A DNA stretch of 64,000 nt from Thermovorax subterraneus (GTDB lineage: Bacteria; Bacillota; Thermosediminibacteria; Thermosediminibacterales; Thermosediminibacteraceae), in contig JAKIHM010000001.1 in assembly GCA_021608145.1 (NCBI GenBank), positions 186,001 through 250,000 on the forward strand, in the 5' to 3' direction. The translations under genes were made by a program, and so were the position numbers. Positions 39,551 through 54,705 of the stretch are shown in pieces. The notes beneath the pieces are model-generated. The model saw only the letters and a program-made list of their open reading frames with translations. It made no database searches and was not told where the DNA came from. Positions within the stretch are counted from its first letter, which is position 1. Each line of letters begins with the position of its first letter.

Positions 39551-39597
39551 GTGATATCATTTAAAATGTGATATTATATCACTTAAAATGTGATAAA
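39551..39597 (+). promoter_or_regulatory. Repeated GTGATA sites before the ATPase gene
   Basis: Contains GTGATATCAT, the perfect 15-bp palindrome GTGATATTATATCAC (39568-39582) and TGTGATAA, separated by repeated TTAAAAT. Three phased copies suggest a cooperative operator for the downstream gene. Confidence 0.55.
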
Positions 39598-39612
39598 AAA
39601 TGGGGGATGATT

Positions 39613-40737
39613 ATGACTAGAGGATTATTTCCAGTCGGCGGCCCTGTTGACAGAGAAGACCTGGTGGGCCGAGAAGAATTCATAGTTTCTCTAGTCAATC
39701 GTTTGCAAGAAGGGCAGAGCGTGATGCTGGCAGGACCTAGGCGAATCGGCAAGACATCTGTAGCCCGTGAAGTCCTGCGCAGGCTTAAAGAAAAAGGGGC
39801 TTATACCGCCGCGGTGGATTTCTTCCGTTTTTCCGGCAAGCGGGATTTTGCTTATAGTTTAATAAACGCGTGTCTGGAAAACAGAACTGGAATCAAGAAA
39901 ACCCTGAGTATTTTGCAAGACAAGGCTAAGGCCCTATCAGGGGGAGCGAAATTCGCCATTAAGCTTAAAGATCTTGAAATTTCCTTCGGCTTTGCCGAGA
40001 AAAAGTCGGACGATGAACTCCTTGACTACGCCCTGATGCTTCCGGGCATTTTGGCAGACAAGGACAAGAAGCTAATGGTGGTCATGTTTGACGAGTTTCA
40101 GGATGCTCCCAGGGTGACGGACACCGAAATTTTTAAGCGAATGCGAGCTCATTTTCAGGCACAAAAAGGCGTGGCATACCTTTTCCTGGGGTCCAAAGAA
40201 GGGATGATGCAGGCCCTTTTCAGCGAGAGGAAGGAAGCGTTCTACCGCTTTGCCACAATGCTTCCCATTCCTGGTATTTCAGAAGATGATTGGGTGCCGT
40301 ACATCGTTAAAAAATTTAATTCCAGGAACATTCAGGTGGATGCGGATATGGTAAAAGAGATAATTAGCCTTTCCGGTGGGCATCCGCAGGATACTATGTT
40401 CCTCTGCTCTGAAATTTACTACACCCTTTTGGAAACGGGAGATGATGTCATTACCCATGACTACGTGCGCCTGGGGTACGAACGGGCTATGTTGGCTCTT
40501 GCTCCCATCTTCGACGAAATACTGGATGATTTAAGTGCACGTCCCCAGGTGCGCAGGGTCCTATACCGGCTTGCGCTGGGTGAAAATGCCTACGAGGAAG
40601 GGATTCATCCCAATAAAGTCAAACGGGCCATTGACCTCCTGCTTGGCAGGGCCGTTATAGAAAAAACAGCCCGGGGGAGTTACGTTTTCGTAGAACCGAT
40701 GTTCCAGCAGTATATTTTAGAACAATTTCGACATTAG
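39613..40737 (+). CDS. AAA-family ATPase (archaeal-ATPase/AAA_14-like)
   Basis: About 374 residues. Walker A in LAGPRRIGKTSVAREVL, Walker B in LMVVMFDEFQDAPR, sensor-like FLGSKEGMM, and a C-terminal winged-helix (IHPNKVKRAIDLLLGRAVIEK). This family resembles ORC/Cdc6-like STAND ATPases common near mobile elements and in archaea; targets are unknown. ATG 39613 follows GGGGGATG. It is monocistronic and preceded by a palindromic operator cluster, which hints at self-regulation or regulation by an unlinked repressor. Confidence 0.85.
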   Translation: MTRGLFPVGGPVDREDLVGREEFIVSLVNRLQEGQSVMLAGPRRIGKTSVAREVLRRLKEKGAYTAAVDFFRFSGKRDFAYSLINACLENRTGIKKTLSILQDKAKALSGGAKFAIKLKDLEISFGFAEKKSDDELLDYALMLPGILADKDKKLMVVMFDEFQDAPRVTDTEIFKRMRAHFQAQKGVAYLFLGSKEGMMQALFSERKEAFYRFATMLPIPGISEDDWVPYIVKKFNSRNIQVDADMVKEIISLSGGHPQDTMFLCSEIYYTLLETGDDVITHDYVRLGYERAMLALAPIFDEILDDLSARPQVRRVLYRLALGENAYEEGIHPNKVKRAIDLLLGRAVIEKTARGSYVFVEPMFQQYILEQFRH

Positions 40738-43099: not shown

Positions 43100-43622
43100 G
43101 GGGTGAGGAAGCCCCCTTTGGGTTACGATGTCGATAATGACGGAAAGTACGTAATCAATAAAAAAGAAGCTTTTATAGTAAGAAAAATATATGAAATTTT
43201 CCTGCGGGGCTACGGTTACGGTAAAATAGCCGAAGAGCTGAACAATCATGGCAGCAGGACCTAACTCGGAAACTTATTTACCAAAAACGGCATCTATGAA
43301 ATCCTGATTAACGAAAAATACAAGGGGACTTATGTATTCAACCGCAGGTCCTCAAAAAAAGAAGGAAAAAGGAATAATCACAAATACGAAGATAAGGATG
43401 AAATAATACGAATACCCAATGCTCTACCGGCCATTATCGATGAAGAAATGTTTGAAAAAGTACAGGAAAAAATATTTGGAAGAAAGCGAGGGCCGAGAAT
43501 GACACAAAATATTCTGTGGTGATTGCGAAAGTTCTTATACGTGAAACGGCAGCTTTTGTAGATAAAATAATAATCTATCCCGGTAGAAATAAATATTAAG
43601 TTTAAAACGGAAAGGGGTAAAG
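43100..43622 (+). pseudogene. Large serine recombinase fragment 1
   Basis: Reads KPPLGYDVDNDGKYVINKKE, IVRKIYEIFLRGYGYGKIAEEL, a stop, LGNLFTKNGIYEILINEKYK, then PALPAIIDEE..VQEKIFGRKRGPRM and a jump to VDKIIIYPG. These are the recombinase and C-terminal domains of a large serine recombinase; the catalytic domain and the zinc ribbon are missing. It ends with ACGGAAAGGGGTAAAG, the same as fragment 2 at 53125-53140. Confidence 0.85.
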
Positions 43623-43777
43623 TATGTATTCTGGTAGTTACACATAAACCCTTTTAAAAACTATTGATCCTTTCAGATTCCGAACTAGATCTTCGTTCCT
43701 GCTTTGAGCCACCTCGCCGGCATGGTTATCAAAAAAGATATCGGTAAGGGATAGGCTAGGGGAGCGGGGAGGGATAA

Positions 43778-43920
43778 TTGGAGGGGACCCGCCAAAGGCG
43801 GGGCGGAGGCCGTTTATGCTCACCGCGGCAAGGCGGACCCCTTGCCGGAGCCCAAGGCCGGGATGTTATAATGGCAAAGGTCGTGAGGCGGATTAAATAC
43901 CCGGCCGGAGGCCGGGGTTG
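43778..43920. repeat. Cluster of GC-rich hairpins
   Basis: Three stems in 140 bp: CCCGCC-AAA-GGCGGG, GGCAAGG-CGGAC-CCCTTGCC and CCCGGCC-GGA-GGCCGGG. They precede the double hairpin at 43951. Unequal spacing and sequence exclude CRISPR. Confidence 0.6.
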
Positions 43921-43950
43921 TTGTCTATTTTATACCATCTTTGCATTTAT

Positions 43951-44043
43951 AAAGGGCACTTCCGCCGGGGCGTAAGCCCGAAAGCGGAGGTGCCCAATAA
44001 TTTCGGCCCTGCATGGTGCCTGCAAAAGGCTCGATGCAGGGCC
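43951..44043. repeat. 92-bp double-hairpin repeat, copy A
   Basis: Stem 1: GGGCACTTCCGC with GCGGAGGTGCCC; stem 2: GGCCCTGCAT with ATGCAGGGCC. It lies 16 bp past the end of herA. Same orientation as copy B at 48325-48416. Confidence 0.9.
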
Positions 44044-44058
44044 TTTAAAGTTTTTAAG

Positions 44059-45798
44059 TTAAATGAAGTTATTCGCCTTAAGAAATTCTTCTGGAGTATT
44101 AAATGCCGTGAAAAATAACGGTGAACCGGCGAAGGATAAAGGAGAGACAGGTCCAACTGTCATAAAGGAATATTGCCGTGCTGATGGATCAAAAGAACTG
44201 TGAGGATCCCGAAAAGTCTGGTAAAGTTTTAATGCATTGAGGTCTCCACCTATAATCTCTTTTAGAGCCATAAACTCTGTCCCTAAAGCTAATCCGAAAC
44301 CGAAAAATAGGATCCTAAGCTGATTTATTATCTCTTTATGTAAGCTTGAAAGTGTCTGGCTTATAAACATCCATCCAAGGCCGTATTTTCTTGTAGTCCT
44401 TACGGCATCAATTAAAGAAATCCTGACACTTTCTTGCTTGTCGTTTTCATACTTTTCTCTAGGAGCCAATCTATGTGCCTCATCAAGTATGACGAGCGTA
44501 TTCAAAAACTTATTCTTTTTATAGGCATCTTCCGCAAGATAAGTAAGCCCATCTAGAAGTCTTTTTATGACCAGCGCTTGAATAGTGTCGTTCCAGAAAA
44601 GTCCACTAGCCATTTCTTTAGATAAATCTATAATTACAACCGGACGGTTATTTAAATTAATATCGAAAGTCTGGTAAATAAGCTGATTTATAGAGACTGC
44701 CCCATTACGGTTTTCACTGAATAACTCAGCTACTGGTTTCCAGTAATCGTTAAAAAATTCCTCTCTAGATGCTTCTTGAAGCATAGAAACAAATCTGGCC
44801 CTTGATTGATCACTTTTATAGATCTGACGTTGGACATTCTGATCATGCAGTATTTCCCAGCATTTATTGAAAGCATCTATTGTATTTAGATCTTTTAGCC
44901 TAATGTTAGCCTTTTCTAACTTTTCCACTAGAATTTCACAGGCTGTCCTTCTGTTTTCTCCTTTAGGAATAGAAAGACGTTCAAAGAATTGGGATTCGTA
45001 AAGTATCTCACTAAACAAATCCCATCTGTCAAGGACTAAATCTTTGATTCTTTTTACTATTACATTTTTACCTAAACACCTAAGTATGCCTGCTAAATCC
45101 AAAGAAAATCCTTGCAGTCCAACTTGACCACTTATATCTTTAGCAAATTCTCCTTGAGGATCTATTATAAATACAGCCATCTGAGGGTATCTTGCATAAG
45201 CCAGCATGATCATTTTTGCGAGGACAGACTTACCCGAACCTGTTTTGCCAAATATCCCAATATGGTATGCCTCACCAGCCCCATGTGGACCGCTCCCAAA
45301 ATGTTTAAACCAGAGGGGTAGTTTTGGTTTCGAACCATATACACAGCCCAAATAAAAAATTTCGTCTCTATATCTTTCAAGGAGTATATTTATAATTTCT
45401 TCTGTTGCCAAGTTAATATAGGTTCCAGTTGCTGGGACGGTCCCCAGAATGCTAGGCTCAAACCTACTGCCTTCGTCGCTGAAAACAGCACTTACCGTCA
45501 TCTGTCCTAGGTGAGTATCCTGCTGACCGCTTACCTGGCTGATCTGCCCTTTTTGTCTTGCTAAAGACCTCATAGTCGGATCCTCAAGCCATATATTCCT
45601 CAGTTGAATCTCGGTTATCTGTCCTAGTGCGTAATGCTTTTTTCCGTCTTGGATAAAGCTGAAAAAAGCCAGTTCTCCTACTAGTTTTTTCCCAACAGCA
45701 GTTCCCAATATATCTAAGGAGAGCTCGCTGGTTGAGGAAGGCGATCCGATTGTCCCTATACGCTCAGCATTACTAAGTAAATTTTCAATATCGCTCAT
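44059..45798 (-). CDS. herA: HerA-type DNA translocase/helicase
   Basis: 579 residues. N-terminal HAS-barrel-like region (1-150), Walker A GIFGKTGSGKS (184-191) with MAVFIIDPQGEFA, Walker B LVILDEAHRLAP, and the arginine-containing VRTTRKYGLGWMFISQ. HerA forms hexamers that pump DNA and works with the nuclease NurA in end resection; HerA proteins also serve anti-phage systems. It overlaps the nurA end by ATGA. Base composition is more AT-rich than the chromosome on either side. The partner nurA is frameshifted here. Confidence 0.93.
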   Translation of the reverse strand: MSDIENLLSNAERIGTIGSPSSTSELSLDILGTAVGKKLVGELAFFSFIQDGKKHYALGQITEIQLRNIWLEDPTMRSLARQKGQISQVSGQQDTHLGQMTVSAVFSDEGSRFEPSILGTVPATGTYINLATEEIINILLERYRDEIFYLGCVYGSKPKLPLWFKHFGSGPHGAGEAYHIGIFGKTGSGKSVLAKMIMLAYARYPQMAVFIIDPQGEFAKDISGQVGLQGFSLDLAGILRCLGKNVIVKRIKDLVLDRWDLFSEILYESQFFERLSIPKGENRRTACEILVEKLEKANIRLKDLNTIDAFNKCWEILHDQNVQRQIYKSDQSRARFVSMLQEASREEFFNDYWKPVAELFSENRNGAVSINQLIYQTFDINLNNRPVVIIDLSKEMASGLFWNDTIQALVIKRLLDGLTYLAEDAYKKNKFLNTLVILDEAHRLAPREKYENDKQESVRISLIDAVRTTRKYGLGWMFISQTLSSLHKEIINQLRILFFGFGLALGTEFMALKEIIGGDLNALKLYQTFRDPHSSFDPSARQYSFMTVGPVSPLSFAGSPLFFTAFNTPEEFLKANNFI

Positions 45799-46944
45799 GA
45801 TAATTTTCCCCCTTCGGTTCTATATCCGTACATGCTGAAAAATATCTCGGACACATCCCCGGTATGAAGTTCTATCATGCGCCGGGTTGATGTTTGCCTA
45901 AATGCTGGCATTGCATTACCCAAATGTTTAACTATCCTGTCAGCTATAAATAGTGGATAGGGTTCCATAATACCCGGCGTGCTGCATTGATATCTCAGTC
46001 CTTGAAATAAAATGGACAACCGGGTATTGTTGGCTGCAACAGAAGAAGACATCTCTATCCTTAAAGCAGGTGTCCATCTGTGCGGCTTGTAATACACCAC
46101 ATAAATCCTATTAATAAGCGAAATTATTTCGTCAATCAATTTTATGAGACTCTTATTGTTTCCAGGAGATTTCAGGTGCCACGGCTGTGCAGGTTTTGCT
46201 AAAGGAATGGGCATAGTATACTCTCCAGGCTGCAAAACGAAGGTTAAAAGTGCTCTATCATCGTAGTAAGGCGGCCATCCGAATTTTTCCCCAAGCTCCC
46301 GTCTTGTTGTATATTTAGGTAAACTTACCCATATCTTATCGGTTCTTGATGACTCAAGGACTTTTCTGTATGAGGTTAAAAACTGTTCAAACCCTTCTAT
46401 TAACCTCTTTCCCATACTGTCTACTTCACGCCCTAGAGCTTTGTTTACGGCCTGGTTCATGTAAATTAATGGGGTAGTAAGGGAACCGTCTAGCATGACA
46501 ACATCATGAGGTGCTTTCACAGCAAGTTCAAATTCCATCTGCATCATAATTCCTCTTATAATGGTACCTGTGTCCGGGTCATGCTTTTCAGGCGCTATAA
46601 AAACCAAGTGATTGGGTTTCTCCCAGTACCTAGTCTCCGAAGGAGGAGTTAAACCTACCTTCAATCGCAACTGCCGCACAGGCGACAAGATCTATCGCAA
46701 GAAGTCTCTCTATCGCATAAGAACCGTCTACACCACAGGTCGTCGGCGGTTGTGGATATCCTATATCTCTGTCGCTTTTTAGAATATTGCTGGTCAGAAG
46801 TTGCTTTCGGATCTCATTCTTGTTCTTTTGGAGCCTTTTAAAAACACTAAAAAGTTTTTCCCCTATATGGGCACTTTCTTCAAGCACCTCTTCTACAAGA
46901 GCCTCCGGCAATTCTGAAAAGATACCCTGTTCATCTCTCTCCAT
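45795..46944 (-). pseudogene. nurA: NurA nuclease, frameshifted by a 4-bp duplication
   Basis: Two frames join to a normal NurA. The N-terminal part has GVDGSYAIERLLAIDLVACAAVAIEG (first catalytic Asp) and the C-terminal part has TPPSETRYWEKPNHLVFI, VVMLDGSLTTPLIYM (second acidic motif) and RMIELHTGD. At 46653-46660 the plus strand reads ACCTACCT; removing one ACCT restores EGLTPPSE in one frame. Length would be about 380 residues. As written, no full nuclease can be made unless slippage or frameshifting corrects it. Confidence 0.85.
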
Positions 46945-46972
46945 TACAATCCCCCATATATTCTTGATCTAG

Positions 46973-48205
46973 TTATTTTATCAACAAACTCTTTTTTATT
47001 GCATTTTTATCCCAATACTTCCATTCGTCGTTACTTTTTACCCTTTTAATTAAGTATCGTTCTTTCCAATATTCAGCCAATTCTTCGAATTTATAGTCAT
47101 AATAATCGATCTCTTTATCAATTCCATTTATATACTCCCTTACATTTGAAGCAAGTGGGAAAATAAAGACTTCTCTCTTAACTTCGTGTCTTAAAAGAAT
47201 TTCGGTGCTGTCAATACCCAAAGCTTTTTTTAAATCCACCTCCTCGTTTATCGCCTTTATAGCAGTTCTGATTAACCTAAATTTGTAGTTGGGCCCGTTA
47301 CCGTAGCCTCCTTTAACCTCAATCCCCTTCAGGTACAAATACTCTTTCATTAACCTACATATCTCTTCAGTGTATTTAAAAGTCCCGAATCCTTTTGTAT
47401 AACCAAGCGAAATACACAAAAGCCTGCCTTTATATTTTACTCTGTTGTATATTGAACTCCGACCATAAGCTGAAGTTGTGGTCAAAAGGACTAAGTGAGG
47501 GGAGATAATATTTTGTTCCATTTCTGTTTTCCTGTTACTGTATTTCTCTCTATAAAATTCTCTCACTTCATTTGCTACTGCACTCATTGCAACCAGTTTG
47601 CCACCTAGCAGCATACTATACGGTGGTACTGCGCCTAATGTAAATATATCCATGGTTTCATTAAGTTTATATACCTTATCCTTACCTCTCAAATTGAGCC
47701 ACTCGTTCCTTAATGTTAACCCTAAAGCTGGGGAGTGGCATCCCAATATCCCCATCAGCTTCCCGTTGTATTCATCGATGATAAGAAAACACAGCCTCCG
47801 ACCATAGCCATAAGAGTAAGGCAGACTCCATGTAAACCTCGCTACCTTAAATATATCCCATTCTTTTTTCGTTCTTACGGGGACCAATTTCGGAGATATT
47901 TTTTCCGGTAAAACATCCTTACCATTTGCAAAATATTCATCGACAATCTTTTCTCCTTTTTCGACTAAAAATTTTCTATGTTTCAGCAAGAACTCAATTC
48001 GGGCTTTTTCATGCATTTTTCTAAGGATCTTTTTATCGCCGCTATCTACCTTATCAAGAGCATAGCTTTTTATTTTTTCAATAATTTTATTCCGCAATAT
48101 TTCCTTTTTTATCTCAGTATCAATATCATTATTATTTAATATATTCTCTATTTCGCCTTCATCACTAAAATTATCTAACTCTTTGAACTTATATTCTATC
48201 GACAA
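46973..48205 (-). CDS. DruA-like (DUF4338) protein
   Basis: 410 residues. The segment CFLIIDEYNGKLMGILGCHS, followed by LRNEWLNLRGKDKVYKLNE and then LLTTTSAYGRSSIYNRVKYKG with ISLGYTKGFGTFKY, resembles DUF4338, the domain of the Druantia protein DruA. N-terminal 100 residues are helical and charged. Function of DUF4338 is unknown. It is the first gene of the operon with nurA (28 bp) and herA, so the three probably act together; no DruE helicase is present. Confidence 0.65.
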   Translation of the reverse strand: MSIEYKFKELDNFSDEGEIENILNNNDIDTEIKKEILRNKIIEKIKSYALDKVDSGDKKILRKMHEKARIEFLLKHRKFLVEKGEKIVDEYFANGKDVLPEKISPKLVPVRTKKEWDIFKVARFTWSLPYSYGYGRRLCFLIIDEYNGKLMGILGCHSPALGLTLRNEWLNLRGKDKVYKLNETMDIFTLGAVPPYSMLLGGKLVAMSAVANEVREFYREKYSNRKTEMEQNIISPHLVLLTTTSAYGRSSIYNRVKYKGRLLCISLGYTKGFGTFKYTEEICRLMKEYLYLKGIEVKGGYGNGPNYKFRLIRTAIKAINEEVDLKKALGIDSTEILLRHEVKREVFIFPLASNVREYINGIDKEIDYYDYKFEELAEYWKERYLIKRVKSNDEWKYWDKNAIKKSLLIK

Positions 48206-48324
48206 TCCGTTGCACCTCCGTATAGTTTTAATTATACCATAATTGCCTTAATTTTCTATAAGGAATAAGTATAGTATATAAACTGTGTATATTATCTCTA
48301 CATCTCTATACCGCTTTTACTGCA

Positions 48325-48416
48325 AAAGGGCACTTCCGCCGGGGCGTAAGCCCGAAAGCGGAGGTGCCCAAAATTTCGGCCCTGCACGGAGCCCGCAAGA
48401 GGCTCGATGCAGGGCC
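48325..48416. repeat. 92-bp double-hairpin repeat, copy B
   Basis: GGGCACTTCCGCCGGGGCG... through CGATGCAGGGCC, nearly identical to copy A apart from the second loop (CGGAGCCCGCAAG versus TGGTGCCTGCAAA) with compensating stem changes. It lies 120 bp upstream of the druA-like start, so the two copies bracket the three-gene module. Confidence 0.9.
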
Positions 48417-48446
48417 GGCATCTTTAGTATATACTAAATACCTGTT

Positions 48447-49232
48447 TTAACTTTTTGGAGGGTAAAATGCTCCTATAACTACAAATGTAGCAAACCTATG
48501 AAATTTATGTACCGTTCCAACATAGAAATATAACTCGCGATTTTCTTTAAAAAAATCGAAATATTTCTTCTTTATTTCGATAAGCACCTTATCTTTATAT
48601 TTCTTTCTCCAGCTACGGTAACTTTGATATATTTCCCAATCAACATATGATAGTATATGTTCCCCATTGCATTTATCGTCATAACAATTGAATTTATAAG
48701 CAAAGGACCAAGGTATTTTTTCTAAAACTTGCTTTTGTACTGATGAAAATAAGCTTATTTGTCTAAGATACATTTCCTTTTCTGGACTCCAATTTTCTGG
48801 TTCTTCTCGTATAATAAGGTCAAGTACTTCTTTTGGTTTAATTAATCCAAGAGATATATTTTCATTCTTACATTTTTCTATTAATTCTTCTAATGATTTA
48901 TTCAGCAAAGGAAGAATAATTTTTTTTCTTTCAGCCCAATTGTTTTTGGTGTCTACAAAGTGTAATTTTCTTATACTATCTGGATCAACATGGTAACTTT
49001 CAGGCCTTGTATTATCAGATGACTTTATAACTTTAGCTTCTATCCAATCATATTTCCTAAATTGCTTTTCTTGGGGAAGGTCCCTAAATTGGACAGGATA
49101 TAACCTTATCCATTTACCTACATCGGTTATCCCTGCCACACATACAGCTTCACCATATCTTCTTGAAGGCTGTGGATATGCTTTAACAGTGATTAATATC
49201 CTTTTCGTCTCCCATTTGTGTGTAGAACCCAT
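48447..49232 (-). CDS. Unrecognised protein paired with DUF488
   Basis: 261 residues. N-terminal half is beta-rich (KRILITVKAYPQPSRRYGE, VCVAGITDVGKWIRLYPVQF, then KYDWIEAKVI) and reminiscent of PUA/ASCH-like nucleic-acid binding folds; the C terminus ends YFYVGTVHKFHRFATFVVIGA. Cys residues in CYDDKCNGEH may bind metal. I do not know the family. Its start overlaps the DUF488 gene by 50 bp, so the two are translated together. A function in nucleic-acid recognition is a guess. Confidence 0.7.
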   Translation of the reverse strand: MGSTHKWETKRILITVKAYPQPSRRYGEAVCVAGITDVGKWIRLYPVQFRDLPQEKQFRKYDWIEAKVIKSSDNTRPESYHVDPDSIRKLHFVDTKNNWAERKKIILPLLNKSLEELIEKCKNENISLGLIKPKEVLDLIIREEPENWSPEKEMYLRQISLFSSVQKQVLEKIPWSFAYKFNCYDDKCNGEHILSYVDWEIYQSYRSWRKKYKDKVLIEIKKKYFDFFKENRELYFYVGTVHKFHRFATFVVIGAFYPPKS

Positions 49233-49695
49233 TCAAATCACCTTGTAAATGCTTTATTATCAACCCATTACCATCCATTTTTTTTATGTTCCATGCTAAT
49301 ATACTTCTGTGGCATTCGGAATAATTTTTTTCATAGCACAATAGACAGCAATTTTCCTGATGAATCTCATTTAAAAGCTCTTTCAGCAAATGTATATTAG
49401 ATTGCAACATTTTTTCGTATTCATTAATAAACATAATGAAATCTTTTGTTCGATATAGCTTTTCACGAAGGTCTTTTGGAGTCCCAAGTTTTTCTAAGTG
49501 CTTGTACTTAATGCCATGTTCAAATAATACTTTACTTAAAATCGACTTAGAAAAACCTTTTTTTCTACTTACAGGATTCTTTCTAACATCTATAATCGTA
49601 TCAATATGATTTTTCTTAATTATATTTATAAATTGTTCTAAATCAATTCCTTCGTATCCGATTGTGTAAACAGTATTGACTGACACGACAAACAC
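49183..49695 (-). CDS. DUF488 family protein
   Basis: 170 residues. Typical DUF488 blocks: VYTIGYEGIDLEQFINII, DTIIDVRKNPVSRKKGFSKS, YKHLEKLGTPKDLREKL, and CCLLCYEKNYSECHRSILA. The conserved Arg, Cys and His suggest an enzyme active site, but its reaction is unknown. It overlaps the following 261-residue gene, forming a compact two-gene unit outside the 92-bp repeat. Confidence 0.88.
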   Translation of the reverse strand: MFVVSVNTVYTIGYEGIDLEQFINIIKKNHIDTIIDVRKNPVSRKKGFSKSILSKVLFEHGIKYKHLEKLGTPKDLREKLYRTKDFIMFINEYEKMLQSNIHLLKELLNEIHQENCCLLCYEKNYSECHRSILAWNIKKMDGNGLIIKHLQGDLNGFYTQMGDEKDINHC

Positions 49696-49750
49696 CTCTA
49701 GTTTATATTATCTTCTTCAATAAAAATAGAAAATCTTCCCGGTTCTAATA

Positions 49751-50173
49751 TTAATATCCTATCAGGAACAAGCTACCGAGGACTTCGTGATATTTTATTA
49801 TAACTGCCTGGTCCGGTGTAACAATTAAAGTTACCGCAGCGGGGATAAACATATCTTTCTCGTACTGATTCTTTTTTTCACCTTTTTTAGTCGTCTCTTC
49901 GCCCATTTTATTTACGACATCATATATCTGAACTTTTTCGGCTATAATTTTAGAAACAGCATCCTTTTCCTGATCCTTGGACACCCATCCTACATCCACT
50001 ATATCGCCGGGCTTTATTTTCCCTGCTAGCGATGAAGTGAGATTCACACTTATAGTTATCCTCCTCATACCTTCCTCTATAACAGGCACTTTTTCCGTAA
50101 AGACCATATTTTTTAGTATATAGGAACCGGCGCTGATATCGACTTTTGCGTAGCCGCTTACTTTCTCGCCCAT
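49751..50173 (-). CDS. SAF-domain protein, CpaB/RcpC-like, probably truncated
   Basis: 140 residues. The sequence GYAKVDISAGSYILKNMVF and RRITISVNLTSSLAGKIKPGDIVDVGW is the SAF plus beta region of the pilus-assembly protein CpaB. The N-terminal membrane anchor found in complete CpaB (~250 residues) is missing and there is no good ribosome site before the first Met. No other Flp pilus gene is nearby. Most likely a 5'-truncated remnant. Confidence 0.6.
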   Translation of the reverse strand: MGEKVSGYAKVDISAGSYILKNMVFTEKVPVIEEGMRRITISVNLTSSLAGKIKPGDIVDVGWVSKDQEKDAVSKIIAEKVQIYDVVNKMGEETTKKGEKKNQYEKDMFIPAAVTLIVTPDQAVIIKYHEVLGSLFLIGY

Positions 50174-50234
50174 TTCGTCTAAATTATTCTTATTTGGACA
50201 ATATGTGATAAAATTAATATAAGAGGTGGACGTA

Positions 50235-50689
50235 ATGGATTTTGGTGAAAGATTACAAGAATTAAGGAAAGAAAAAGGAATTAGCAGGAAAGAACTTGCA
50301 AGAGCATTACAATTATCGTATTCCGCTATTGCAAAATACGAAACAAATGTGAGGAAGCCAGACCAGGAGACCCTGAAAAAAATCGCCGATTATTTTGACG
50401 TAACCGTGGACTACCTCCTGGCCGCTCCAATAGCCGTAAGCTTACGCACAAAGATGAACGGGATATTGAAAAAATCATCGAAGAGATGAGGCAAAGGATT
50501 GAGAATACGGAAGGATTAATGCTTGACGGAAAAATATTAAACCCAGAAGATATCGAAGCGATAATTAACGCCGTGCGGGTGGGATTAGAGATGGCGAAGC
50601 TACGGAATAAAGAGAAGTATGAGCTACGGAATAAAGAGAAGTATGGAAGAAAAAAGAGAAACAATGATGGAAGTATAAAAAATACTTAA
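50235..50689 (+). pseudogene. XRE-family repressor broken by one missing base
   Basis: N-terminal Cro/C1 helix-turn-helix (RLQELRKEKGISRKELARAL, YSAIAKYETNVRKPD) ends in DYLLAAPIAV. In the next frame the same DNA continues as GRSNSRKLTHKDERDIEKII and then EEMRQRIENTEGLMLDG, the standard tail. One G missing at about 50420 (CTGGCC for CTGGGCC) explains the change. A 24-bp tandem repeat (GAGCTACGGAATAAAGAGAA...) lies near 50600-50645. Probably the repressor of a former integrative element. Confidence 0.78.
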
Positions 50690-50715
50690 AAACAAAAAAA
50701 GCCGGAGGAAGAGGT

Positions 50716-51516
50716 ATGTATATAGCATATTTTGACGAAAGCGGAGATGATGGTTACCCTAAATATTCTTCTGAATTATTCGTTTTAACGAGCGTATATA
50801 TGGACGAATCCGTATGGAAAAATAATTATAATACCATAAAAGATTTTCGTAAAGACTTAAAAAGAAAATATAATTTCCCTGTAAAACTGGAGTTTCATAC
50901 AAAAGATTTTTTAACGGACAAAAACCCCTACAGGAAATACAACTGGGATCCGGAAACAAAGAAAAACATACTTACGGATTATTTCAACTGTATAGCAAAA
51001 TTGGAAGTAAAAATAATCAATGTGGTTATCATAAAACCAAATATTTTAAAAGACGATTACAATGTCTTAGATACCGCTTTTTCTTACAACATACAGAGAA
51101 TAGAAAACGATTTAAGTGAAGCGGGTAACTCCAAATTTCTCATTATTACAGATGAGGGTAGAGTTGGTAAAATGCGAAAAACTTCCAGAAGGATGCAGAA
51201 ATATAACCCTATACCCTCAAAAATATATCCAGGAAAATATTTATATAACGAAATTAAACTCTTGATAGAAGATCCTTTACCCAAGGAATCAAAGGAATCG
51301 TACTTTTTACAGATTGCAGACTTAATAGCGTACATAGTCTATCTATATAGTTCGAAAACATTTATACAAGTTGACTGGGCAAACAGAGTTAAACGAATAC
51401 TAGACTTTGGTGATATTATAAATTTCCTGAATATGATAAAAGCCCGCATAAATTGTAAAGCGGCTTCTGATAACGAATTCGGCATAGTAAATTATCCAAA
51501 ACCAAAAAAGCAATAA
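50716..51516 (+). CDS. DUF3800 protein (RNase H-like fold)
   Basis: 266 residues. Begins YIAYFDESGDDGYPKYSSEL and contains FLIITDEGRVGKM and ADLIAYIVYLY, the acidic positions of DUF3800. The family has an RNase H-like fold and is frequent on mobile elements and near phage-defence genes; its activity is unknown. Intact, with GGAGGAAGAGG upstream, between the broken repressor and the ImmA-like gene. Codons are AT-rich. Confidence 0.85.
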   Translation: MYIAYFDESGDDGYPKYSSELFVLTSVYMDESVWKNNYNTIKDFRKDLKRKYNFPVKLEFHTKDFLTDKNPYRKYNWDPETKKNILTDYFNCIAKLEVKIINVVIIKPNILKDDYNVLDTAFSYNIQRIENDLSEAGNSKFLIITDEGRVGKMRKTSRRMQKYNPIPSKIYPGKYLYNEIKLLIEDPLPKESKESYFLQIADLIAYIVYLYSSKTFIQVDWANRVKRILDFGDIINFLNMIKARINCKAASDNEFGIVNYPKPKKQ

Positions 51517-51644
51517 AAAACACCACCTACGGCGCATTCGCGCTTTCAGTGGTTCACTTTTATAGTATCAAAAATAATATTAGCTGTCAAGACTATGGAA
51601 GAATTTTCTTGTTCAAAGTTAACTCTATTAGGCAGGTGGCCCCT

Positions 51645-52079
51645 TTGAAGATAAAGCGCATTGTAAGAAGCCTTGTAAAAAAGTATAAAACCAGCGACCC
51701 ATTTGAACTTATGGATGCGCTGGACATAATATACATAAAGCACCCTCTGCCTGAAAACGTCAGAGGATTTTATTTTACCAAACTTCGCAGGAAAATCGTG
51801 GTAATAAACAGCATTTACGAGAAGAGGCGGCAGATTCTGACTGCGGCCCATAAATTGGGGCATTGCATTTTGCACCCGAAAATGAATGCAATCTTTCTGG
51901 AACTGAATACTTTCATGGTTACAAGTAAGTACGAAAATGAAGCCGGTAAATTCGCCGCAGAACTGCTAACGTATGAAATAGACTTCACCGTATACGAAGG
52001 ATATGTTATGGAACAAATCGCCTGTGCTTTAGATATTCCCGAGAATGTGCTCAGATTAATTCTTAGGGAGGGTATCTAA
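51645..52079 (+). CDS. ImmA/IrrE-like protein with altered catalytic motif
   Basis: About 144 residues from TTG 51645 (GGCAGGTGG upstream). ImmA/IrrE metallopeptidases cleave XRE repressors to induce mobile elements. The zinc motif should be HExxH; here it reads AHKLGH, with Lys in place of the catalytic Glu, while both His, the following LHP and the later Glu (YENEAGKFAAELL) remain. Protease activity is therefore doubtful. It overlaps the recombinase start by one base. Confidence 0.82.
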   Translation: MKIKRIVRSLVKKYKTSDPFELMDALDIIYIKHPLPENVRGFYFTKLRRKIVVINSIYEKRRQILTAAHKLGHCILHPKMNAIFLELNTFMVTSKYENEAGKFAAELLTYEIDFTVYEGYVMEQIACALDIPENVLRLILREGI

Positions 52080-53140
52080 TGAGTGAAGGAAAAATTAAAG
52101 CGGCAGCTTATTGCAGGTATTCAAGCAATAACCAGAGGGAAGAAAGCATTGAAGCCCAGCTGCGGGCTATAAAAGAATTTACAGAAAAAGAAGGTTACGT
52201 CGACAGTCCCGAGAGTATAATATTAGAATCCGTCCTTGAAGGTATGGCGGAATACTACTCTCGGAACCTTGCAAGAGAAGTAATGAAGGGAATGAAAAAG
52301 ACAGCTCTACAGGCAAAGCATACGGGCGGTTTGCCACCGCTTGGATATGATGTAGATGAAGAAGGTTATTATGTAATCAATGAGCAGGAAGCAGTCATAG
52401 TAAAAAAAATTTTTTCTCTTTATTTAGATGGCTATTAATATAAGGCAATAGCCGATATTTTGAACAGACATGGATATAGAACTAAATTGGGAAATCTTTT
52501 TGGGAAAAACAGCATTTACGATATCCTTATAAATGAGAAATACAAAGGCACTTACGTTTTTAACAAAAGATCGAGCAAAGACAGCTTAGGTAGGCGGAAC
52601 AATAGAAGATTCAAGGATAATGAAAATATTATAAGAATCCCGAACGGTATGCCGGCTATAATTGATGAGCAAACTTTTGATAAAGTCCAAGAGAAAATAC
52701 ATGCAAGGAAGAGGGGTCCTCGTATGAGTGAAAAAAGGTTCTGGAGTATGTCAGGCAGTTTGAAGCTGAAAAAAGCGGCGAAATCAAATACCTAGAAAGC
52801 AAAATAAAGGACCTTGAAGCTAAGATCGAAAGGCTGATAGACGCCATTGCAGAAGGATATGGTGATAAAGAAATGATAGATAAAAGGATGAAAGCCTATA
52901 AGGCCGAAAAAATACAGTGCGAGAGCAGGCTAAGCGAATTAAAATTAAAAGAGTATAGCTGGATAAACGAAGAAAAAGTAGCGGATTACCTGAGAATTTG
53001 CAGGGAAGCCCTTCTAAGCGGGGATCCTAAAGCCCAAAGAAAAATAATAGAAACTTTTGTAGATAAAATAATAATCTATCCCGATAGGATAGATACTTCT
53101 CTAAAAATAAATATTAAGTTTGAAACGGAAAGGGGTAAAG
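52079..53140 (+). pseudogene. Large serine recombinase fragment 2, next to ssrA
   Basis: Starts AAAYCRYSSNNQREESIEAQL (nucleophile Ser region), then loses ~80 residues of the catalytic domain before SPESIILESVLEGMAEYYS, has a stop at 52436-52438, continues in the same style to RKRGPRMSEK, loses the zinc ribbon, and resumes in another frame as VRQFEAEKSGEIKYLESK to IIIYPDRIDTSL. Coiled-coil and C-terminal end are present. It converges on the 3' end of ssrA with no gap. It cannot be active. Confidence 0.9.
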
Positions 53141-53141
53141 C

Positions 53142-53490
53142 TGGTGGAGGCGAGGGGAATCGAACCCCTGTCCGAAGGCGCATCGATAAAAGCCTCTACA
53201 GGCTTATCCCTCGTTTTAAATCTCGCCGGCTTCACTCCCGAGGGCAGGATTGAAAACCGGCCAGCTTTGTTTGTTTCTCTTCCGCTGCCAAAGCTAACAG
53301 CGGAAGAAGAGCCCGGAGCTATGACACCCTTTTCCGGCAACCGGGCACGCCGGGAAGGGCGTGCTGCTGTTTAATTAAGCAGCAAGAGCGAGTTCTTCGT
53401 TGGCACTTATTTGTGCTTCCGGATTTACGAGTCGGAAAGCTCGGCCTGCAGCTTTTATCTCCGCTGCCCCCGTCGAGACCAAACGCCCCC
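53142..53490 (-). ncRNA. ssrA: tmRNA
   Basis: Minus strand. The 5' end GGGGGCG pairs with CGCCTCC before ACCA at the 3' end, forming the tRNA-like acceptor stem; the T arm is GGGGTTCGATTCCCC-like. The reading segment gives the tag ANEELALAA followed by TAA (complement near 53373-53402), a normal proteolysis tag. CCA is encoded. tmRNA with SmpB rescues stalled ribosomes. The 3' end is a common integration site and is where the serine recombinase relic ends. Confidence 0.96.
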
Positions 53491-53628: not shown

Positions 53629-54705
53629 GTGTCAGGCGATGAGTATATGAAAAAACTCGAGGAACTGGTGGATAAATTCGAAGTGGATGAAGGGTTATCC
53701 ACGATTGACAAGAAATTTGAGTTTTGGGAACTGGTTATCCTAAAACTGCTTTTAAATAAAAAATTTGGGCTCAAGGAGATAAAAAAGGAGGTAAGGGAAA
53801 TTGAAGAAAAACTGGATAATCCTAATACCGGCCTTGCTGAAATTAAGAAAGAAATACGGGAAATCGAGGACAAACTAGACAACCCGAACTACGGTTTAGC
53901 TGAGATTAAGAGAGAGATCAGCGAAATAGAGGGTAAGCTGGATAATCCCGACATTGGCTTAGGGGAGATAAAGAAGGAAATCCAGGATATAGAGTGTAAA
54001 CTGGATAGTCCCGAATTCGGCTTAGCCGAGATAAAGAAAGAAATTCAGGATATAGAGTGCAAACTAGACAACCCGAACTACGGTTTAGCTGAGATTAAGA
54101 GAGAGATCAGCGAAATAGAGGGTAAGCTGGATAATCCCGACATTGGCTTAGGGGAGATAAAGAAGGAAGTCCAGGATATAGAGTGCAAACTGGATAGTCC
54201 TGAATTCGGATTAGCTGAGATAAAAAAAGAAATCGAAGATATAGAGGAGAAACTCGATAGTTCCGACTTTGGTCTTGAGGAGATAAAAAGAGAGATAAAG
54301 GAGATTGAAGAAAAACTGGACGGAATAATCCCGCCAACAGGCAATATATTAACGACGGGACCGGTAGTGGCCGACAACAGCGTGAACAGCATAGTTGCAA
54401 AAGTTCTTAACAACTCTGATGAAACGGTAACCGTCACCGTCAATCTTTACGATATCGGGACGTGTCCGGACGCTAAAGAACTGGTGCAATCTTTTGAACT
54501 TACCATCGAAAGCAAATGCTCAAAAGCCGTTGTCCTGCAAAAACCTGCGACCGAATGGGAAGTCCAGTATATAGGCGTCGGGCCGGAAATCTTCGTCTTT
54601 ACGGCAGGCCGCAGCAACGGTAAAAATGCACCTATTTCTGCCAGCAACTTAATCCCGGCAAATACCTTCAGGCACAGCGAACACGTCCTGACGACCGACC
54701 CATAG
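53629..54705 (+). CDS. 21-residue-repeat coiled-coil protein
   Basis: 358 residues. Residues 1-50 are a charged lead-in. Residues 51-231 consist of eight full 21-residue repeats and part of a ninth, consensus IKKEIxEIExKLDNPxxGLAE; 21 is three heptads, so a long rod-like coiled coil with regular NP breaks is expected. The final ~120 residues are beta-rich (ILTTGPVVADNSVNSIVAKV, VTVTVNLYDIG) and look like a small surface-type domain. No signal peptide. GTG start after AAAGGAG. Function unknown; possibly spore- or surface-associated. Confidence 0.8.
   Translation: MSGDEYMKKLEELVDKFEVDEGLSTIDKKFEFWELVILKLLLNKKFGLKEIKKEVREIEEKLDNPNTGLAEIKKEIREIEDKLDNPNYGLAEIKREISEIEGKLDNPDIGLGEIKKEIQDIECKLDSPEFGLAEIKKEIQDIECKLDNPNYGLAEIKREISEIEGKLDNPDIGLGEIKKEVQDIECKLDSPEFGLAEIKKEIEDIEEKLDSSDFGLEEIKREIKEIEEKLDGIIPPTGNILTTGPVVADNSVNSIVAKVLNNSDETVTVTVNLYDIGTCPDAKELVQSFELTIESKCSKAVVLQKPATEWEVQYIGVGPEIFVFTAGRSNGKNAPISASNLIPANTFRHSEHVLTTDP
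53779..54322 (+). repeat. 63-bp coding repeats with a 189-bp higher-order unit
   Basis: Eight to nine 63-bp units encode the 21-residue repeat. A three-unit block starting near 53872 recurs near 54061 with very few changes, indicating a recent 189-bp duplication. Confidence 0.85.

Follow-up and report, generated by a model that had tools for sequence, protein, structure and literature searches.

A recurrent DruA-NurA-HerA operon, likely a defence module, and its frameshifted copy in a genomic island of Thermovorax subterraneus

Background

The question raised by this locus is whether three adjacent genes of Thermovorax subterraneus, encoding a DUF4338 protein (DruA), NurA and HerA, form a functional unit and, if so, whether that unit serves defence. 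The genes lie in a stretch of 64,000 nucleotides (contig JAKIHM010000001.1, positions 186,001 to 250,000), here called the window. The original prediction, made from the sequence alone, described a tight, AT-rich operon placed among mobile-element relics and a DUF488 pair and bounded by direct double-hairpin repeats. It regarded the operon as a possible new defence system and knew of no described system combining the three proteins.

Results

The cassette contains druA, nurA and herA in co-directional order on the minus strand (Table 1), with gaps of 28 bp and -4 bp. All three Pfam matches exceed the curated cut-offs, and the tight operon of the original prediction is confirmed. The 410-residue protein is DUF4338/DruA, matching the full Pfam profile with 246 bits (E=5e-73) and the PADLOC DruA1 model with 298 bits. 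NurA matches PF09376 with 36 bits (E=6e-9). HerA matches DUF87 with 53 bits (E=6e-14), and both its Walker A (GKTGSGKS, residue 184) and Walker B (LVILDEAH, residue 435) motifs are retained. Besides DruA1, several weak HerA models in PADLOC were matched by the triad, and NurA was matched by none. The G+C content of the cassette is 0.38 compared with 0.475 in its surroundings, and its neighbours are the DUF488 pair and a relic of a recombinase; both points agree with the original prediction. No open reading frame of the size or kind of a DruE/YprA-type helicase was found at 40-52 kb of the window; DruA is accompanied solely by HerA and NurA. Promoter and terminator scans gave no higher yield than shuffled sequence.

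Table 1. Location of the triad genes, their flanking features and the chromosomal NurA-HerA pair (window positions unless another locus is named)
Feature	Position	Strand	Remarks
druA (DUF4338/PF14236), 410 aa	46,973-48,205	-	first operon gene; TTG start; GGAGGTG ribosome site; Pfam, PADLOC, fold model
nurA (PF09376), frameshifted	45,795-46,944	-	Pfam; alignment with intact relatives
herA-type DNA translocase ATPase, 579 aa	44,059-45,798	-	DUF87; Walker motifs intact
Double-hairpin repeat, copy 1	43,951-44,043	+	left cassette edge
Double-hairpin repeat, copy 2	48,325-48,416	+	right cassette edge
Second gene of neighbouring DUF488 pair, PADLOC PDC-M19B candidate	48,447-49,232	-	context, outside triad
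DUF488 gene, PADLOC PDC-M19A candidate	49,183-49,695	-	context
Truncated rcpC/cpaB, pilus operon end of ancestral integrated element	49,751-50,173	-	
Serine recombinase in pieces	52,079-53,139	+	ends beside ssrA 3' end
ssrA (tmRNA), apparent integration site	53,142-53,490	-	
Chromosomal NurA-HerA pair	L225 3,216-6,105 (G000 C39)		also L226

The proposal of a repaired operon in the original prediction implied that a break had been noticed, and nurA is indeed frameshifted. Its N-terminal part (46,944-46,657) and the remainder (46,655-45,795) lie in different frames, and a short tandem duplication marks the break. In four relatives the gene is intact, with an alignment of 61-70% on both sides of the break in the window. 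Three residues, D, E and D, are invariant across the NurA family and correspond to those of RNase H-like nucleases. Because the frameshift separates one catalytic D from the E and the other D, which are on the second fragment, the triad copy in the window has probably lost its activity; it would retain it only if the break were an assembly error or were bypassed by recoding.

A sequence search of solved structures with NurA gave a weak NurA match only. The NurA of a Caldanaerobacter relative was modelled with a pLDDT of 88.5, and the ten best PDB matches of the model were all NurA (E 5e-11 to 4.5e-9); its identity is confirmed by the predicted fold. The best PDB matches in a profile search with HerA were HerA/DUF87 ATPases, followed by TdpA and archaeal HerA, and the key residues of HerA are invariant across 22 members. 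The window DruA, modelled together with 50 relatives, gave a pLDDT of 88.6 and a pTM of 0.86. The best Foldseek matches of this model in PDB were mixed, many of them GNAT acetyltransferases, with probabilities up to 0.97 and every E value at or above 0.01. A conserved stretch, LGAvPPYxxLLGGKLVA, follows a long strand and resembles the CoA loop of GNAT proteins, and a published analysis describes DUF4338 as a GNAT domain (PMC10853773). DruA is likely to have a GNAT-like fold, weak by statistics, and acetyltransferase activity is putative.

Part of the 3' end of the serine recombinase is duplicated at 43,553-43,622, about 10 kb from ssrA. The region 43,553-53,140 beside ssrA appears to be a decayed genomic island. 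In the relative G001 the flanks are the same and the whole island is absent, the window positions 52,767 and 44,041 being about 420 bp apart. In G024, rcpC is followed by the DUF488 pair, a single double-hairpin repeat and then the left flank, with no DruA cassette. At the equivalent point the window carries the DruA cassette and a second copy of the repeat. The cassette would therefore have entered or left between repeats, and the triad in the window is best read as cargo inserted into the ssrA island. Relatives of the island in G022, G023, G024 and G004 are larger and probably encode a Tad-like pilus together with relaxase-like and VirB4-like proteins (L209-L212, L215, L216 and L218). The cargo found after rcpC differs between them: G024 has the DUF488 pair there, and in both G022 and G023 the repeat is followed by a small nucleotidyltransferase-HEPN-like pair.

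The two repeats are direct and 95% identical, and each folds into a pair of strong hairpins (z about -7 to -9). They belong to a unit of about 350 nt (window 43,691-44,043) that ends in the two hairpins and has copies in G001, G004, G022, G023 and G024. Relative genomes with the repeat have 1-5 copies, often at operon ends, and no family was matched in an Rfam search. The cassette lies exactly between two copies, as the original prediction had it, but a role of the repeats as boundaries of a defence system was rejected, since in relatives they occur at the ends of other operons where no triad is present. They are instead a small intergenic family of the integrated element of the host lineage and not part of the triad system.

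Three further features were noted in the window. An ImmA-like (M78) peptidase and a DUF3800 protein, with an HTH regulator nearby, are encoded at 50,716-52,079 and resemble the control regions of mobile elements. A protein consisting of 63-nt (21-residue) tandem repeats is found at 53,629-54,705, with a repeat content common to G001. An AAA ATPase at 39,568-40,737 has weak matches to the antiphage models DS41 and PDC-S01.

A second triad was found within the genus (G002). It has the order NurA-HerA-DruA and a very divergent HerA, and it is located behind VirB4-like conjugation genes. Both triads of the genus are in conjugative-element contexts and are mutually unrelated versions. A NurA-HerA pair without DruA is conserved in the genus, beside a metG-like gene on the chromosome of both G000 and G002, and its HerA scores just 32-37 bits with the profiles of island HerA. 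Because the genome of the window and the genus hold this distinct chromosomal pair, the triad is an accessory addition and not the housekeeping NurA-HerA.

A scan with the DruA alignment, using one genome per species, gave 284 relatives, the best 80 loci of which were analysed. NurA and HerA are found in the same tight, co-directional operon at 53 of these 80 loci, a proportion that is not a rate for all DruA because the loci were ranked by their likeness to the window DruA. The association, for which the original prediction had called for a neighbourhood survey, is widespread. Neither of the two outcomes named there as refuting, a 410-residue protein outside DUF4338 or an association lacking in other genomes, was obtained. 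The order is DruA-NurA-HerA in 50 of the 53 triads and NurA-HerA-DruA in the other three, the median gaps being -10 and +1 bp. Among the remaining loci DruA is joined by HerA alone in 2/80, by NurA alone in 2/80 and by neither partner in 21/80, several of the last being at a contig edge. The NurA background is 19 matches in 32 genomes, from which we estimate that chance would place about 0.2 NurA neighbours in 80 loci of 10 kb each.

The 53 triads span 15 phyla, chiefly Chloroflexota (22) and Bacillota (12), and include the isolates Caldanaerobacter subterraneus, Thermanaerothrix daxensis, Thermogemmatispora tikiterensis and Pyrinomonas methylaliphatogenes. A single archaeal case was found, on a metagenome-assembled contig. 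In the sample from the phylum of the window (398 genomes) DruA is present in 47, and among the matches that reach the end of the profile, triads are found in G000, G002, G121, G152, G281 and G373. Seen from the side of HerA, five of the six strong relatives of the window HerA in the phylum adjoin DruA and the sixth belongs to a NurA-HerA pair without DruA. The DruA-NurA-HerA operon is a real module, conserved in many unrelated prokaryotes.

The three parts differ in how they have evolved. The distances of NurA and HerA are closely correlated (Mantel rho 0.83-0.91) while those of DruA with either are less so (0.25-0.43), all values being above those of 500 shuffles. In ten locus pairs HerA is 70-76% and NurA 54-80% identical but DruA merely 34-38%, compared with a mean of 57-61% for DruA in locus pairs at like HerA identity. 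These low-DruA pairs include the window with L131, L152, L154 and L159, L099 with L142, and L105 with L149. On the DruA tree the triad status is clustered, with 18 changes compared with 25.4 when shuffled (none of 500 shuffles as low), and its distribution would need several gains or losses. Since NurA and HerA co-vary tightly and DruA is exchanged more freely, we read HerA-NurA as a putative fixed engine and DruA as its exchangeable partner, a swappable sensor or licensing subunit.

DruA is also found without the others, as in the solo genes of L051-L053. An origin of the window DruA by replacement from such a solo gene, suggested by L051-L053 being its nearest relatives in the phylum sample, was rejected after L093 and L094, whose DruA proteins are 77% and 69% identical to the window DruA, were found to be full triads. 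Replacement of DruA deeper in the tree is upheld. Short DUF4338 proteins (profile 1-226) are a separate observation; they occur in L059-L065 and in G383 (five copies), are multicopy and are apparently located near IS4-type transposase-like genes.

Discussion

The triad shares parts with several known systems. Its DruA is of the same family as the DruA of Druantia type I (PF14236, PADLOC DruA1). Druantia types I-III are however centred on the helicase DruE/YprA, while the window has neither a DruE-type helicase nor DruB-D and carries a HerA-NurA engine instead. As DruE is missing the triad is not Druantia as defined, and NurA is not mentioned in the Druantia literature searched.

In DUF4297-HerA and Sir2-HerA a HerA hexamer is coupled to an effector enzyme, and both activities are needed for antiphage defence (PMC11291478). 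The triad has this theme in common with them, including a HerA with intact Walker motifs, but its nuclease is NurA with an RNase H-like fold, DruA is added and the HerA sequences are only distantly alike. It is neither of these systems because the adjacent effector is NurA and not Sir2 or DUF4297. TdpAB, whose antiphage role is linked to phosphorothioate and which is not known to have a DruA component, likewise joins a HerA-type ATPase (TdpA) to a nuclease partner. The similarity to its structures (8wet and related) is weak, with 47 bits and E 1e-11 for TdpA from the HerA profile and E 0.009 for TdpB from the NurA of L006 only. No phosphorothioate gene was seen in the window cassette.

The break-repair pair of archaea and Deinococcus consists of the same two proteins in the same adjacency, with a NurA fold match of E 5e-11, but the HerA of the triad is a separate, diverged lineage that goes with DruA, is carried on elements and has a patchy distribution. 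The HerA/FtsK capture and BREX-related capture systems with GNAT combine a HerA translocase, a GNAT protein and a nuclease in a similar way, and a DUF4338 GNAT has been noted on DndF (PMC10853773, PMC12839542). The triad lacks the PglZ, Orc/Cdc6, TGT and Dnd parts of these systems, and NurA is mentioned in neither of the two papers. No publication joining DruA/DUF4338 or Druantia with NurA was found in a search made mostly outside subscription journals, where an earlier description is possible. In agreement with the original prediction, the triad is apparently an undescribed HerA-nuclease module with a DruA partner.

Defence is the likely role of this module, judging from the kinship with Druantia, the HerA-nuclease precedents, the mobile and patchy distribution and the defence genes found inside the operon. 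Such genes are a pentapeptide protein with a P-loop (L131), a Sacsin/NOV_C protein (L154) and GmrSD with McrBC upstream (L159). The triad is patchily distributed and, in this genus, carried by mobile DNA; DruA is also found on plasmids and some IMG/VR contigs. In a search for defence genes in the flanks with PADLOC and Pfam, 91 flank ORFs were not visibly richer than 91 random ORFs, a control that held Gabija and Cmr genes. What was predicted as a possible new defence system thus holds as a real and apparently undescribed module, with its defence role drawn from these indirect lines.

The mechanism may be pictured as follows. HerA would assemble into a ring of six subunits and drive double-stranded DNA into a dimeric NurA nuclease. 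DruA, GNAT-like and with a motif like a CoA loop, would be a subunit for sensing, licensing or tagging that determines when, or on which DNA, HerA-NurA works, and invading phage or plasmid DNA would be degraded. We consider it fairly probable that the locus in the window is a defective copy of a conserved, mobile defence system of three genes that degrades DNA. A more specific version is put forward tentatively, namely an immune system spread across phyla whose GNAT-like DruA either marks DNA, recognises it or acetylates a partner, and by doing so switches HerA-NurA onto invading DNA; DruA would be exchanged between lineages like a specificity subunit.

Break repair is the role usually assigned to HerA-NurA in thermophiles, and many hosts of the triad are thermophiles, with mesophiles included. 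An accessory repair or recombination module, in which HerA-NurA resects ends under regulation by DruA and aids hosts or mobile elements with broken or incoming DNA, giving no immunity, would agree with the common occurrence of thermophiles among the carriers, with end resection as the best-known role of HerA-NurA (PMC9960219) and with the effects of Thermus HerA on UV survival, transformation and DNA donation (PMC5448004). It is nevertheless unlikely, as the genome already has its conserved chromosomal NurA-HerA pair and the triad, with a DruA from a defence family, has a patchy distribution, is carried on elements in this genus and is present in mesophiles. Resection by HerA-NurA has moreover been doubted by the authors of a recent structure, who argue for an antiviral use (PMC12977600).

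The triad could also serve the element that carries it, through entry exclusion or in rivalry among integrated elements, by destroying the DNA of competing conjugative elements or plasmids. The conjugative contexts of both triads in the genus point in this direction, as do the DruA genes on plasmids and IMG/VR contigs, but many of the 53 triads are located in long contigs. We give this a small chance, and it is a sub-case of defence rather than its opposite.

It is very improbable that DruA is a mobile GNAT-like passenger that repeatedly lands upstream of HerA-NurA without working with them, for although it varies more freely than its neighbours, has solo copies and has short multicopy relatives near transposase-like genes, the genes overlap or abut in fixed order in 50/53, triad status is clustered on the DruA tree (18 changes vs 25.4) and the Mantel correlations are positive.

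Conclusions

DruA is a protein without a settled function. In the triad it stands without DruE and beside the well-studied HerA-NurA engine, which makes its function directly testable; the operons are small and present in cultured bacteria. With the triad, an immune role becomes likely for HerA-NurA pairs of bacteria, a question that has been raised as open for the archaeal pair (PMC12977600).
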